Positions 16,201 to 31,034 of a stretch of 33,860 bases of DNA are shown in pieces. Under the pieces are notes generated by a model. That model was given only the letters and a program-made list of their open reading frames with translations. It did not search any database and was not told the DNA's origin. Made by a program: the position numbers and the translations under genes. Where the stretch lies: positions 1-33,860 of the forward strand of contig PKUE01000015.1 of NCBI GenBank assembly GCA_002869685.1, given 5' to 3'. The stretch is from Desulfuromonas sp. (lineage in GTDB: Bacteria; Desulfobacterota; Desulfuromonadia; Desulfuromonadales; Desulfuromonadaceae). The stretch's first letter is position 1; each line of letters starts with the position of its first letter.

Positions 16201-16851
16201 ATGAGGATTGAATGCCCCCACTGTCAGTACAGTAAAGAGGTTGCTAACGAGAGCCTGCCAGCATTGCCCGCCAACGTCACGTGCCCGCAATGTTCCCAGA
16301 GTTTCACTCTGGAAGCACAAGCCCCTGAGCCGGACTTCTCCGACGAACCTCTGCTGACAGAAGACCTGACTCCTGCGATGGCTCCCCCGGCAGCACCGAC
16401 ACCTCCCCCGGCCGCAGCGATGCCACAGAGCTCAGCGCAACCGGCAGGATTCTGGCTGCGGGTGTTGGCCTCGATTATCGACGGTGTGCTGTTGCAGATC
16501 CTCAGCTACGCCATGCTGTTCGGCCTGCAGGCGGTCATGGGCGGAATCAATTTCGAAACAGATCCAACCATCGCTCTGGTGCTGTTCGCCATGAGTATGG
16601 TGGTGTCAGTTGCCTACTATGTCTTTTTTACTGGCTACAATGGCCAGACTCCGGGCAAAATGGCCCTGCGGGTCAAAGTGATCGACAACGACGGTGGTCC
16701 CGTCGGTTACGGCCAGGCGTTTGTCCGTGAAGTGATCGGAAAATTCCTGTCCAGTCTGATTCTGTGCATCGGCTACCTGATGGTGGCTTTCCGTGCTGAC
16801 AAGCGCGGCCTGCACGATCTTGTTGCCCGGACACGGGTGATTAAACTGTAA
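16201..16851 (+). CDS. Zinc-ribbon (MJ0042-type) plus RDD-family membrane protein
   Basis: 216 residues. The N-terminus is a small zinc ribbon of the MJ0042 kind: CPHC at 5-8 and CPQC at 28-31, followed by SFTLE. A Pro/Ala-rich linker spans about 40-78. The rest is an RDD domain with the opening [15 protein letters not shown] (Arg and Asp of the family name). It has three hydrophobic helices, the segment [19 protein letters not shown], and a final [19 protein letters not shown] proteins are inner-membrane proteins; some have been linked to ion transport, but the function here is unknown. It lies between argF and argG in the operon. A short hairpin follows. Confidence 0.85.
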
Positions 16852-16878: not shown

Positions 16879-16907
16879 ACCGTTTTATGTGTCACAAGGA
16901 GACGCTC

Positions 16908-18125
16908 ATGCAAAAAAAAGGGACTGTAAAAAAGGCTGTCCTCGCCTACTCCGGGGGCCTGGATACCTCCATCATCCTTAAATGGCTGGTGGAAGAATAT
17001 GGATGTGAAGTCATTGCTTTCGCCGCTGACCTTGGCCAGGGTGAAGAACTCGATTTTATCCCTGAAAAAGCCAAGAACACCGGGGCGAGCAAATGTTTTG
17101 TCGAAGATCTGCGCGAAGAGTTTGTCCGCGACTTCGTCTTCCCCATGTTCCGTGCGAATGCCATTTACGAAGGTCGCTACTTCCTCGGCACCTCCATTGC
17201 CCGCCCGCTGATCGCTAAAAAGCAGATGGAAATCGCCCTGGCCGAAGGGGCTGATGCGGTCTCTCACGGTGCCACCGGCAAGGGCAACGACCAGGTCCGT
17301 TTTGAGCTGGGCTACTACCATTTTGACCCGAGCATCCATGTCATCGCACCCTGGCGCGAGTGGGATCTCAACAGCCGCTCGGCACTGGAAGCCTACGCCA
17401 AAAAGCACGGCATTCCGGTTCCGACCAGCAAAAAGTTCCCCTGGAGCAGTGACCGCAACCTGCTGCACATCTCTTTTGAAGGCGATATCCTCGAAAATCC
17501 CTGGGCAGAAGCTCCTGAAGAGATGTATGTACTGACCACCCGTCCTGAGGATGCTCCCGACGAAGCGGAATTCGTTGAGATCGAGTTCAAGAATGGTGAT
17601 CCCATCGCCATCAACGGTGAGCAACTGTCACCGGCCAATCTGCTGGCGAAACTCAATGAGCTGGGTGGCAAGCACGGCATCGGTCGCATCGACCTGATGG
17701 AAAACCGCTACGTCGGCATGAAGAGCCGTGGCGTCTATGAAACTCCCGGCGGCACCATCCTCGAAGAAGCCCACCGCGGCGTTGAATCGATCACCATGGA
17801 CCGCGAAGTCATGCACCTGCGTGATTCCCTGATCCCCCGCTATGCGGAAATGGTCTACAACGGCTACTGGTTTGCCCCGGAGCGCGAAGCGCTGCAGGCT
17901 TTGATCGACGACACCCAGAAAACCGTCAATGGCATGGCCCGGGTCAAACTATACAAAGGCCACTGCCGCGTCGTGGGTCGCAAGTCGGACACCGACAGCC
18001 TGTTCAACGTCGAGTTCGCCACGTTCGAAGCGGACGAAGTCTACAACCAGGCCGATGCCGAGGGCTTCATCAAGCTCAACGCTCTGCGCCTGCGCATCCG
18101 CAGCATGATGAACAAAAAGGGCTAA
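16908..18125 (+). CDS. argG: Argininosuccinate synthase
   Basis: 405 residues from ATG 16908, chosen because AAGGAG at 16896-16901 sits at the right distance and the product then begins [19 protein letters not shown], as in the family. An upstream in-frame ATG at 16887 would add seven residues. The enzyme joins citrulline and aspartate at the cost of ATP. The ATP pyrophosphatase motif AYSGGLDTS is at 13-21, and [27 protein letters not shown] and the [14 protein letters not shown] block are all present. A strong terminator follows, so argG closes this part of the arginine operon. Confidence 0.98.
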
Positions 18126-18139
18126 TTTCGCCTCTTTCG

Positions 18140-18176
18140 CAGCCGGGGCGTTTTTTGACGCCCCGGCTGTGTTTTT
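18140..18176 (+). terminator. Strong Rho-independent terminator after argG
   Basis: CAGCCGGGGCG (18140-18150) pairs perfectly with CGCCCCGGCTG (18159-18169) around TTTTTTGA and is followed by TGTTTTT. It separates argB-argG from the Nudix-argH group, which must have its own promoter or depend on read-through. Confidence 0.9.
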
Positions 18177-18210: not shown

Positions 18211-18708
18211 ATGGATTATCCTCTGCAAAAACAGATCAAAACCTCCGTTGTCGCCTGCATTGTCGACGACCGGCAGCGGATCCTGCTGACCCGACGCAGC
18301 ATTCCGCCATTCTTCGGCCAGTGGGTGATGCCGGGAGGAAAGATCGACCATGGCGAAGGGATTCATACCGCTCTGAAACGGGAAGTGTACGAAGAGGTGG
18401 GTATTGAGATCACTATCGATACCCTCGTCGATGTCTACGAGCATGTCGCCGTCGGCGAACGACGTGACCACTATATCATTCTGTATTACCAAGCAACCCC
18501 GCAGACCTTTGAGCTGGCAATCAATCCCGATGAGCTCAGTGAAGCGGTGTGGTTTCAACCTCAGCAACTACCACAACTGGATGTTCCGCCGGGATGTCGT
18601 CACATCCTCGCCATGCTGCACCCGGAGTTGCCCTGGGCGGATCTGGCCGCGCCGGGTGATCTGGCAGATTGCGAGATCCCAGGCAACTGCCACATCGGCA
18701 CCCCATAG
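18211..18708 (+). CDS. Nudix hydrolase
   Basis: 165 residues from ATG 18211. An earlier in-frame ATG at 18169 lies inside the terminator stem and is unlikely to be used. The Nudix box is complete: Gly43, five residues, Glu49, seven residues, then REVYEEVGI at 57-65. This gives the Mg2+-binding helix for cleaving a nucleoside diphosphate linked to another group. The segment LLTRRSIPPFFGQWVMPGGKIDHGE resembles MutT- and ADP-ribose-pyrophosphatase-like members, and the substrate cannot be read from sequence. The gene ends eight bases before the nitrilase-like gene, which suggests the two work or are expressed together. Confidence 0.88.
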   Translation: MDYPLQKQIKTSVVACIVDDRQRILLTRRSIPPFFGQWVMPGGKIDHGEGIHTALKREVYEEVGIEITIDTLVDVYEHVAVGERRDHYIILYYQATPQTFELAINPDELSEAVWFQPQQLPQLDVPPGCRHILAMLHPELPWADLAAPGDLADCEIPGNCHIGTP

Positions 18709-18716
18709 GACTGGCC

Positions 18717-19868
18717 ATGTTCACCATTGTTGAAAAGACCGTCCAACTTGATTTCCCCCTGGGCCATCATCTCCACTGCATGATCAGCCAGCTGCCAAAC
18801 CACATCCGCTTTGACGATGAGGTGCAGCCTGAGCAGATTACCGATGATAAGTGGCAACGGATCAAATCCGTTCTCGACCTGGTTGCCACGGGTCCGGGGA
18901 ATCTGAAAAAACTTCACTTCCTGCTGTTTCCGGAATCGACGCTGCCCGTGGCACACATTGATGATGCCCTGACCATGATTCAGGAGCGTTTCTGTGCCAA
19001 CACGGTGGTCATGCTCGGGATGGAGCACATCCCTCTCCACGCCTTTGCCGCACTGAGCGAGCGCTTTGCCGCGGATAATCAGGAGATGATCGACGCCATT
19101 GCCCGTGACCGCAACAGTGGCGACATTGAAAATTTACGGGTGAACTTTGCCGCTATCGTCATCAAAGAGGCCGATGGACAGACCCGCGTGTTTCTCCAAG
19201 CCAAGAGCCATCCCTTTGCCGGTGAGGAGAGCCTCGGCAATCGCGATCTTTATCACGGCAAAGTGTTCCCACTATTTCGCAGTAAACCCACGGGATTCAA
19301 TTTCATGGCGATGATCTGTTTCGACTACATCTACCGCACCATCTACCAGTCGAACATCAGTACGGTCATTCAACATGCCAACGAGTTGTTTTTCAGTACC
19401 CGCCAGCACCTCGACTTCCTGGCGATTCTTGAATGCAACCCGAAGCCGGAGCACGCCACCTTTCGCGACGTAGTCAACGGCTTTTACGGAGAATATCTGG
19501 CCGCCGCTCCCGGAGTGCGTGAAACCATTACCGTGTTCTGCAACAGCGCCGAAGCCACCCGCGACTCGCTGCCGATGGTGACGCCAAACGATACGTTTGG
19601 TCATTCCTCGGTGATCATCCATAAAAATCATAAAATGGCACCGCGCAAACTCCGGGATTTCACCGTCGATACGTTTGCCGGACTGCCGGTATGTCGATTA
19701 CGCTTTGGTCCACAGAGCCGTTTGTATTACTTTAACTTACCGGTCTTTCACGAGTTCGATCCGCGCAGCACACGAATGCCGCTGAAAGTCCACAGTATTT
19801 TTGAACCCACACCTTCCGGTGGCTGGCAACGGATGCCGTTGAGTCCCGAAGCCACCAGCAACGAATAA
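18717..19868 (+). CDS. Divergent nitrilase-superfamily (carbon-nitrogen hydrolase) protein
   Basis: 383 residues from ATG 18717, preceded by AGGA at 18707-18710. Overall similarity is not obvious, but the three catalytic residues of the nitrilase superfamily appear in order and in the right kind of context. Glu73 is in FLLFPEST, Lys163 in [10 protein letters not shown], and Cys201 in [11 protein letters not shown]. Each follows a hydrophobic strand, as in the family. Spacing from Glu to Lys (90) is longer than typical, because of an insertion around residues 110-140. Such enzymes hydrolyse nitriles, amides or carbamoyl groups. The substrate is unknown. It sits directly before argH (11 bases) and directly after a Nudix hydrolase gene. 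The superfamily call is inference from motifs. Confidence 0.6.
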
Positions 19869-19879
19869 AGGAGCACACC

Positions 19880-21262
19880 ATGAGCGAAAAACTCTGGGGA
19901 GGTCGTTTCACCCAGCCCACAGATAAATTTGTTGAGGAATTCACCGCCTCCATCGACTTTGACCAACGCATGTACCGTTACGATGTCCAGGGGTCCATGG
20001 CGCACGCCCGCATGCTCGGGCGGCAGGGCATTATTGCCGTCGAAGAGGCCGAGCAGATCTGCGCCGGATTGCAGGAGATCCTCGCCGACATCGAAGCGGG
20101 AAAAATTGAATTTTCTGTCGCGCTGGAAGATATCCACATGAACATCGAAGCGCGGCTGATTGAACGGATTGGCTCCGTCGGCGGCAAGCTCCACACCGGC
20201 CGCTCACGCAACGATCAGGTCGCTGTCGATATCCGTCTCTATCTGCGCGATGAGCTCAAAGAGATCCTGGTTTATCTGGACAAGCTGCAAGGTGCCCTGC
20301 TTGATCAGGCCGAGGCCAACCTCGCCACCATCATGCCCGGATACACCCATCTGCAAACCGCTCAGCCGGTGCTATTTGCCCACCATATGCTGGCCTATTA
20401 TGAGATGTTTATCCGCGACAGCAGCCGCATGGCTGATTGCCTGAAACGGATGAATGTGCTGCCGTTAGGTGCCGGAGCCCTGGCGGGCACCACCTTCCCC
20501 ATCGATCGCGAATCGGTGGCAGCCGATCTCGGTTTCGATGGCGTCACCCGCAACAGTCTCGACTCGGTTTCCGACCGTGACTTTGCTCTGGAATTCTGTG
20601 CGGCTTCGGCAACGCTGATGATGCACCTGTCGCGCCTGAGCGAAGAGTTGATCCTGTGGTCGAGCGCCGACTTTGACTTTATTGAACTGACCGATGCATT
20701 CTGCACCGGCAGCTCCATCATGCCGCAGAAGAAAAACCCGGACGTACCGGAACTGGTGCGCGGCAAAACCGGGCGCGTCTACGGCAACCTGATCAGCCTG
20801 CTCACCCTGATGAAATCCCTGCCCCTGGCCTACAACAAGGACATGCAAGAGGACAAAGAGCCGCTGTTCGACAGCATTGATACCGTCAAAGGCAGCCTGA
20901 AAATTTTCGCCGATATGATTGCCGAAATGAATGTCAAGGCCGAGAATATGCGCATTGCCGCAGCACGGGGATTTTCCACCGCCACCGACGTCGCCGACTA
21001 CTGTGTCACCAAGGGGGTTCCGTTCCGTAATGCTCACGAAATCGTCGGCAAAACGGTGCGCTACTGCATCGAAAACAACAAAGATATTCCCAAGCTGACT
21101 CTGGACGAATTCAAACAGTTCAGCGATGTGATCGGTGAGGATATCTACGACTTTGTCACCCTCGAAGCCTCGGTCAACGCACGCAGGGCTACCGGCGGGA
21201 CCGCCCGCAGTGCCGTTGAATCGGAGATTGCCCGGGCTCGCCAACAACGCCAGGAGAACTGA
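19880..21262 (+). CDS. argH: Argininosuccinate lyase
   Basis: 460 residues. It splits argininosuccinate into arginine and fumarate, the last arginine step. Conserved blocks are [10 protein letters not shown] at the start, [20 protein letters not shown] near 109-128, [11 protein letters not shown] near 194-204, and the superfamily signature [12 protein letters not shown] near 276-287 containing the catalytic serine loop. AAGGAG lies seven bases before ATG. The stop is followed after two bases by the lipoprotein gene. No promoter is visible in the 11-base gap before it, so it is probably read from upstream of the Nudix gene. Confidence 0.98.
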
Positions 21263-29597: not shown

Positions 29598-31034
29598 ATG
29601 AAACGAGCAAAAAGCATGATTTCAACCGCCATTGCCATTGGCGTCGCCGTCGGTACGCTGGCAACTTTCAATGCGGCCGAGGCATCCCAGGTCACCAGCT
29701 GGGATATGAGCAGTGTTGAAATCGGTCCACCCACAAATGTCACTGACCCCGGTTTTATCTTCGACCAGTACAACTACATCCCGGAAGGATCACTGGTTGA
29801 CCCTAACACAGGTGCAGTGGCCACAGGTGGATTCATGCCCAGTGGTTATGTCAAATACACCGTCGGCGCCAACTTCTTCACCAATGGTGCCATGACGTGG
29901 AAAGAGCGCGACACACAAGGCCCCGGCCTAAGCATCGTTAATAATGACGACGTCACCGGTGAAAACTGCATCATGTCAGCTGGTTGGAACCCTGACTCCA
30001 CCCCCGACGCCACCCAGATGAGCGACTGGTGGGGTGTTGACCTCAAGCAGTGTTCCGACCCCTGGCAGTCCAGTAAGCGCTTCAAAATGGTCAGCTATGT
30101 TCTCGACGGCCCGGTTGATCTGACCTTTCAGGTTAGCGATACCGGTACAGAAGATATTTATCGCATTCTTGAAAAATACGGCAACCACACCGGCGAACGC
30201 GTTACCGGCTACACCACCCAACTCGGTTTCCTCGATGCCAACGGCAACTTTACCGAGGCACTGCCGGGTCAGGGACTGTCCTTCTGTCTGCGTAACGGCA
30301 GTAAATTCTCCAACACCGCACCGACTCCGAGCAGCATGGCCAACCAGGGCGAACTGGATTCACTGATGGCTCATGGTCTGTTTGGCGCACCGGACAAGCA
30401 CCATACGTCTTCGGGTTACTTCAACCCGTATGTACGTGCCACCTTCGGCCTGCTGGCCGGTGAAACCCGCATCGAGACCACGGGCCTGAGCCAGGTACAC
30501 CGTGACCTGTTTGGTGAGTGGCTGCCTGCGGATCAGATGAAAGGCGGATATTTCTTTGATATGGACGGTATCGTTTATACCGACAATGCTCTGATGGCCA
30601 GCTGTGAAGGCGTGTTTGACGAAGCTGCCGCTCTGGCTGGCGCCCCCAATGCGGGTTGCGACGGCACCTGGGTCACCTATCGTGAGTCTGTCGATGTAGT
30701 CGATAATGGCGACGGCACCTGGACAATTCCACCTTCCGTGGGCACCGATATCCGTCAACCGATTCCTGTTGACGCTGCCACTCTGGAAGCCTGGGCGAAT
30801 GATCCGCTGTGGATTCCGGCAGACATCGATGACTTGGCAAATGTCAACGTCAACAGCTACATGACCGTTGGCAGCATTGCCTCCTGGCCGACAAATGATG
30901 GCAATGGCAATGCCAGCTTTACGATTCGTATCACCCCGACGTTTGATGCAACAGTTGCCCAGGCTGAGCCTGGCACGACTGATCCCCAGGATTTCGTCGT
31001 GTCGATCACTGCCCCGACAACCGTTACCCCTTAA
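29598..31034 (+). CDS. Large exported protein of unknown function
   Basis: 478 residues. Residues 1-29 form a Sec signal peptide with cleavage likely after AEA. The mature protein is rich in Gly, Thr, Asp and aromatic residues, with the look of an all-beta extracellular domain. It has blocks such as GANFFTNGAMTWKERD, WWGVDLKQCSDPWQSSKRFK and YVLDGPVDLTFQVSDTGTEDIYRI. Five Cys in the mature part could form disulphides. The C-terminus (FTIRITPTFDATVAQAEP then FVVSITAPTTVTP) carries no membrane anchor, PEP-CTERM or LPXTG motif. It vaguely recalls the 'choice-of-anchor' class of secreted proteins, but I cannot assign a family. GAGGAGAGG lies just before the ATG. It is the first gene after the sigma54-type promoter and is followed after 31 bases by the Asp-Ser-tail gene. 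Confidence 0.75.
   Translation: MKRAKSMISTAIAIGVAVGTLATFNAAEASQVTSWDMSSVEIGPPTNVTDPGFIFDQYNYIPEGSLVDPNTGAVATGGFMPSGYVKYTVGANFFTNGAMTWKERDTQGPGLSIVNNDDVTGENCIMSAGWNPDSTPDATQMSDWWGVDLKQCSDPWQSSKRFKMVSYVLDGPVDLTFQVSDTGTEDIYRILEKYGNHTGERVTGYTTQLGFLDANGNFTEALPGQGLSFCLRNGSKFSNTAPTPSSMANQGELDSLMAHGLFGAPDKHHTSSGYFNPYVRATFGLLAGETRIETTGLSQVHRDLFGEWLPADQMKGGYFFDMDGIVYTDNALMASCEGVFDEAAALAGAPNAGCDGTWVTYRESVDVVDNGDGTWTIPPSVGTDIRQPIPVDAATLEAWANDPLWIPADIDDLANVNVNSYMTVGSIASWPTNDGNGNASFTIRITPTFDATVAQAEPGTTDPQDFVVSITAPTTVTP

Follow-up and report, generated by a model that had tools for sequence, protein, structure and literature searches.

Between argG and argH, the genome of Desulfuromonas sp. carries two closely spaced genes that we read, with a probability of about one half, as an accessory cassette combining a cysteine amidase of the LmuA branch of the nitrilase superfamily with a Nudix hydrolase of the MutT type, the pair not being part of arginine synthesis. 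The 383-residue amidase candidate represents a new subfamily, and the two genes form a conserved pair of known enzyme kinds. The pair is no peculiarity of this genome, being conserved through the class Desulfuromonadia. The window, that is, the whole stretch of DNA that was analysed, comprises positions 1 to 33,860 (33,860 nucleotides) of contig PKUE01000015.1, forward strand (GCA_002869685.1; class Desulfuromonadia, order Desulfuromonadales). All window features given below lie on the forward strand.

The argG–argH locus and its variants

The argininosuccinate synthase gene argG (16,887–18,125) is followed by a hairpin resembling an intrinsic terminator (18,138–18,171), with 15 base pairs, 11 of them G–C, a loop of 4 bases and a TTTTT tract. 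The Nudix hydrolase gene (18,211–18,708; 165 residues) and the gene for the 383-residue protein (18,717–19,868) both begin with ATG and are separated by 8 bases, and a further 11 bases lead to the ATG of argH, the argininosuccinate lyase gene (19,880–21,262). The original prediction had described this layout, from argG through the terminator and two close genes to argH, and all of its coordinates are correct. The name of argG is also taken from it; this open reading frame is homologous and syntenic in the compared loci, argH is an open reading frame in a syntenic position, and the two serve as upstream and downstream context. The region holds 8 terminator-like matches against 6.8 in shuffled sequences, so that the hairpin stands out by its strength alone. 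Such matches are present in the argG–Nudix spacer of 16 of 52 loci and are strong within the genus.

The conserved order is argB–argD–argF–(RDD)–argG–Nudix–nitrilase–argH. The element in brackets, which most loci of the order carry between argF and argG, is a gene for a zinc-ribbon and RDD membrane protein (16,201–16,851 in the window). In six loci taken from other orders within the class, the arg, Nudix and nitrilase genes follow in the same succession, and no match to the RDD gene is found. In total, argG, Nudix, nitrilase and argH follow each other in 52 of 79 loci, with outer spacers below 600 bases; the other loci are contig ends or copies elsewhere. Further along the window, a 478-codon open reading frame (29,598–31,031) has no Pfam match at E ≤ 1e-5.

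Within the order (136 genomes), the nitrilase family is present in 73 genomes and the Nudix gene in 77; both occur in 68, the nitrilase alone in 5 and the Nudix gene alone in 9. Across the 277 genomes of the class, the corresponding numbers are 161 and 165, with both genes in 155, the nitrilase alone in 6, the Nudix gene alone in 10 and neither in 106. Fisher's test of co-occurrence in the class gives 2e-56 when common descent is ignored, and part of this co-occurrence is shared descent. In 61 of the 62 genomes of other orders with both places listed, the two genes are neighbours on the same strand, a median of 28 bases apart; in the exception (G570) they lie on different contigs. One genome of the same genus rated 98% complete (G032) has no match to argH, the Nudix gene or the nitrilase gene, which reflects either missing contigs or a true loss.

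A sample of 395 genomes of the phylum contains 12 with a nitrilase-family match, all from the class. A scan of genome contigs for close relatives retrieved eight loci, all from metagenome-assembled genomes labelled Desulfuromonadales, Desulfuromonas, Desulfuromonadaceae, Desulfuromusa, Desulfobacteraceae or Deltaproteobacteria, while a search of plasmids, phages and viral contigs retrieved no relative of the 383-residue protein. In Geobacter sulfurreducens, we take GSU0154/0155 to be the Nudix–nitrilase pair and GSU0156 to be argH. GSU0153 is named argininosuccinate synthase in a passage of PMC2825233. A literature search at record level found no publication on the Nudix–nitrilase pair.

Two derived arrangements bear on the relation of the pair to its neighbours. 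The order argG–Nudix–argH is seen in all 16 loci fetched for that purpose (L140–L155), seven of them in genomes with a nitrilase elsewhere and nine in genomes without any. In all 20 loci from genomes without an arg-linked pair (L156–L175), argG and argH are directly adjacent. One genome (G020) combines adjacent argG and argH (L175) with a Nudix–nitrilase pair located apart from the arg genes (L075), and another (G017) combines argG–Nudix–argH (L152) with a partial Nudix gene and a nitrilase on a different contig (L070). The derived arrangements and the relocated pair thus indicate that the pair is accessory to arginine synthesis and able to move as a unit; each of its genes can also persist alone. 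The original prediction had called the pair unrelated to arginine synthesis; as a pair, the two genes have moved away from the arg genes at least once (L075), and the co-occurrence elsewhere that it proposed to look for is what the class genomes display, usually with the two genes side by side.

The genome of the window has a second nitrilase copy (G000:C4:327-1478; L040), 55% identical to the first; its 4.5-kb contig carries no neighbouring Nudix or arg gene. In a 74-row tree, the 19 copies outside the arg cluster need four changes of place. This tree leaves out the truncated loci L107–L113 and the named loci L032–L039, which are copies of genomes already present, and labels one row (L070) as arg although no arg gene lies on its 3.3-kb contig. 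Three copies from the same genus (L040, L091 and L093) encode proteins that are 98–99% identical. A copy from another family (L096) is 88% identical to L040 in a DNA alignment of 1172 bases whose limits match those of the gene, and the confinement of this identity to the gene suggests a recent transfer of a single gene. Judging from these sequences, the nitrilase apparently also spreads alone by horizontal transfer. In L107 (genome G029), and also in L039, the nitrilase gene is split over two frames, through decay or sequencing error in a metagenome assembly.

In a sample of 10 of the 47 flanking open reading frames, transposase genes flank three of the mobile copies (L088, L096 and L106). A further copy (L100) adjoins a DpnII-type nuclease/nucleotidyltransferase and a DUF2779 protein. 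PADLOC gave three matches in this sample, two of them in L100. A reading of the mobile copies as members of defence islands was rejected, as clear defence-like neighbours were found in this sample only at L100. At that locus (L100:1406-3899), a nucleotidyltransferase is fused to a DpnII/MboI nuclease domain beside the DUF2779 protein, and the neighbourhood may be an undescribed defence cluster.

Fold and catalytic residues of the two proteins

Apart from PADLOC, sequence libraries do not identify the 383-residue protein. Pfam and NCBIfam gave no significant match, and the best hit, PhiKZ_gp119, was dismissed as an identity at E 0.057. Pfam CN_hydrolase, a model that is diagnostic of the superfamily and not its defining feature, does not match even at E ≤ 10, and neither single-sequence nor profile searches of the PDB returned a match. 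An hhalign comparison of the family with four housekeeping nitrilases yielded 0.3% from a shallow and uneven alignment that included Lnt. This failure counts against an easy assignment to the nitrilases at the level of sequence comparison.

The predicted structure points to the superfamily. The AlphaFold2 model, computed with 56 sequences, has a pLDDT of 86.7 and a pTM of 0.91 and adopts the alpha-beta-beta-alpha nitrilase fold in both Foldseek and VIA-align comparisons. All 34 Foldseek rows at E ≤ 0.001 are amidases, formamidases, carbamoylase, nitrilases, vanin or Lnt, the best being formamidases, aliphatic amidases, carbamoylase, Nit3, vanin and Lnt. The best 50 VIA-align rows listed all belong to the nitrilase superfamily, with Z scores from 18.3 to 16.1, led by 2e11_A (Z 18.3, 236 aligned residues, 3.2 Å). 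The viral structure library gave no match to the model at E ≤ 0.001.

The residues Glu73 (18,933–18,935), Lys163 (19,203–19,205) and Cys201 (19,317–19,319) follow within a few residues the model strands 68–70, 156–162 and 195–199, respectively. Such strand ends are their usual places in the nitrilase fold. In a 75-row alignment, these residues are invariant in every row that has a residue at the position (72/72, 73/73 and 74/74), the counts falling below 75 where partial rows have gaps, and the six loci from elsewhere in the class retain them as well. Glu73 is the predicted catalytic base, Lys163 lies in a K-S-H-P motif, and Cys201, the predicted nucleophile, lies in I-C-x-D-Y. The order E...K...C of the superfamily recurs in the housekeeping nitrilases of the same genome, which read E...K-x-H...C where the 383-residue protein has E73...K163-S-H...C201. 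The original prediction had placed this Glu–Lys–Cys pattern correctly, and its assignment of the protein to the nitrilase superfamily is borne out by the fold matches together with the invariance of the three residues. Of the two outcomes that it had named as refuting, a lack of conservation in homologues did not occur, nor did a wide separation of the three residues, as far as their strand-end positions in the model tell.

Two further glutamates, Glu170 and Glu171 (19,224–19,229), stand 7 and 8 residues past Lys163 and are invariant in 73 of 73 rows each. One of them is likely the fourth catalytic residue, the second Glu of a tetrad found in amidases such as the Geobacillus enzyme, whose PDB titles mention E142. 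Alignment A1 of the family contains 63 invariant columns. The invariant arginines in it number eight (positions 157, 207, 229, 327, 329, 335, 350 and 353) and suggest an anionic substrate. The family also has a characteristic stretch, ECNPKPEH (residues 239–246; 19,431–19,454), whose first residue (239) is replaced by Gln in those six loci outside the order.

The nearest named relative of the 383-residue protein is the N-terminal part of LmuA, a kinship that the original prediction had missed. Its residues 37–304 match positions 41–305 of the PADLOC model PDLC03850 with E 1.9e-25, and thus it has an N-terminal effector domain of the LmuA type; the next model is the UG5 RT-nitrilase, at E 8.5e-4. 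The LmuA model does not match three housekeeping nitrilases of the window genome. Within the class it matches 159 of 271 genomes, and the places compared among the matches listed are those of the 383-residue family. Of 148 phylum genomes, four have a match, three through this family and one (G177) through a solitary LmuA-like protein of 586 residues (L139:2539-4296). No SMC gene lies in the 12 kb fetched around the latter, and a plasmid search with it found no match.

An hhalign comparison of the family with this 586-residue protein gives 96.6% and E 4.8e-10. Glu73, Lys163 and Cys201 are in register between the two, as are the motifs FPE, K-[ST]-HP, IC and ECNxxPxHxxF, so that the ECNPKPEH stretch is in part common to both. 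The N-terminal effector domains of LmuA include C–N hydrolases, according to a passage of a review (PMC10586767), and PDLC03850 presumably represents the C–N hydrolase kind of LmuA. The best reading of these alignments is that the 383-residue protein would belong to an LmuA-type branch and not among the common housekeeping nitrilases.

The 165-residue partner matches Pfam NUDIX (PF00293) with E 9.1e-23. The translation contains a complete Nudix box of the form GX5EX7REUXEEXGU, G43-x5-E49-x7-R57-E58-V59-x-E61-E62-x-G64-I65 (18,337–18,405), in which G43, E49, R57, E58, E61, E62 and G64 are invariant in the 42 rows of alignment A3. The predicted structure (pLDDT 84.5) has the Nudix fold, with MutT-type enzymes as nearest neighbours. 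The best VIA match is 4dyw_A (Z 19.4, 1.7 Å, 128 aligned residues), and NudI, MutT2 and an Ap6A hydrolase score about one Z unit below it. NCBIfam equivalogs score far under their cut-offs. MutT proper, the 8-oxo-dGTPase, was rejected as an identity, TIGR00586 reaching 48.2 bits against a cut-off of 97.9.

Role of the pair

The cassette reading would date the arrival of the pair between argG and argH to roughly the common ancestor of the class, and would make the 383-residue protein a functional enzyme of the nitrilase superfamily. By analogy with the superfamily mechanism, Glu73 would activate Cys201, which would attack an amide-type carbon to form a thioester with the acyl group and release an amine or ammonia; Lys163 would stabilise the intermediate, and the thioester would then be hydrolysed. 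The Nudix enzyme, as a member of the MutT type, would cleave a nucleoside-diphosphate-linked compound, and its presence next door suggests a nucleotide-derived substrate for the nitrilase. Jointly, the two enzymes may act in house-cleaning and dispose of a small, anionic amide derived from a nucleotide: the Nudix enzyme would open the pyrophosphate and the nitrilase would remove the amide. Sequential action, which the original prediction had suggested for a nucleotide-linked or damaged metabolite, is plausible. The genomic data do not require it, since the genes are separable.

A possible, though rather unlikely, alternative is that the two enzymes have no functional connection: both genes would have joined the arg cluster at an early stage and stayed together by inheritance, with each enzyme acting alone. 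Consistent with this, each gene occurs without the other in some genomes of the class (Nudix in 10/277, nitrilase in 6/277), 22 of the 74 loci L040–L113 lack a Nudix match (a few of them being contig ends), and the nitrilase has been transferred as a single gene. Mere inheritance fits less well with the tight spacing kept over the class, the strong co-occurrence and the movement of the pair as a unit (L075).

The kinship with LmuA also allows a bolder proposal, which we regard as doubtful. Here the 383-residue gene would be the housekeeping twin of the Lamassu C–N hydrolase killer domain. Both would convert an anionic nucleotide-linked metabolite in the same way; the reaction would do no harm at a tonic level beside its Nudix partner and would turn lethal once LmuA unleashes it. 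We hypothesize that the protein acts on the same substrate as LmuA-type effectors. If so, the Nudix–nitrilase pair would lead directly to the substrate on which antiphage nitrilase effectors act. Nitrilase-type domains act as antiphage effectors; in a passage of PMC13275509, DRT1 immunity needs the nitrilase cysteine, and the substrate is called open, with ATP, GTP or NAD+ suggested. With its operon partner and its class-wide conservation, the standalone relative gives the search for a substrate both a simple protein and a genetic setting. It also turns a conserved gene of an amino-acid cluster that has no Pfam or NCBIfam match into a defined enzyme candidate.

It is improbable that the nitrilase is itself a stress or antiphage effector of the LmuA or DRT kind turned chromosomal, with a Nudix partner that protects or resets the nucleotide pool. 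LmuA and then the UG5 DRT nitrilase as closest named models, the dependence of DRT1 on its nitrilase cysteine, the mobile single-gene copies beside transposases and the surroundings of the L100 copy all lean towards such a role. However, the protein is without a sensor, SMC, RT or docking domain, it is stably inherited within an amino-acid cluster, no homologue was found in plasmids or phages, and the sampled mobile copies other than L100 show no defence pattern with PADLOC. A direct service of the pair to arginine synthesis, such as the removal of a by-product made by argininosuccinate synthase (cyclised argininosuccinate or a misadenylated product), could explain why the argG–argH position is kept across the class, but is very improbable given the direct adjacency of argG and argH in 20/20 loci from genomes without an arg-linked pair, the pair away from arg genes in L075 and the second nitrilase copy without arg neighbours.

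Comparison with known systems

The Nudix partner resembles MutT-type hydrolases such as 4dyw, NudI, MutT2 and RppH-like enzymes in its intact Nudix box and in structural scores of Z 17–19. It differs from them in NCBIfam scores far under the cut-offs, and enzymes for NTP, Ap4A/Ap6A and 8-oxo-dGTP are tied as comparisons. The 383-residue protein shares its fold and Glu–Lys–Cys set with nitrilase-superfamily amidases, including formamidase AmiF, aliphatic amidase, Nit2 and the NadE glutaminase domain (VIA Z 16–18, 219–257 residues aligned, 3.0–4.0 Å). In contrast to these enzymes, to which it is 11–18% identical, it is missed by Pfam CN_hydrolase, and its family has its own invariant arginine set and ECNPKPEH stretch.

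The coupling of a nitrilase with a nucleotide-acting enzyme is reminiscent of NitFhit of worm and fly, whose partner enzyme acts on nucleoside polyphosphates. The resemblance is one of analogy: NitFhit is a single fused gene, its nitrilase comes from another branch, and its partner has a HIT domain, whereas Pfam finds Nudix and no HIT domain in the partner described here. The DRT1/UG5 RT-nitrilases are related through the nitrilase fold and weak profile matches (E 8.5e-4 and 0.016). Unlike them, the 383-residue protein has no reverse transcriptase domain; membership was rejected, as only the nitrilase part of the model matched and Pfam and NCBIfam gave no RT match.

The closest comparison is with LmuA of Lamassu systems. 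The match stops at position 305 of the 604-position model and the protein ends at residue 383, so that it stands alone without the C-terminal half of LmuA. Its gene has no SMC-like LmuB beside it and is inherited next to the arg genes, the neighbours being argG, Nudix and argH. With the second half of LmuA and the SMC neighbour both missing, the gene was rejected as a Lamassu system and the protein as a Lamassu effector. LmuA models accordingly fire on this family without any Lamassu system, a warning for their use. What the 383-residue protein has in common with LmuA is the effector-domain match, the catalytic set and, by way of the 586-residue LmuA-like protein, the K-[ST]-H-P and ECNxxPxHxxF motifs.
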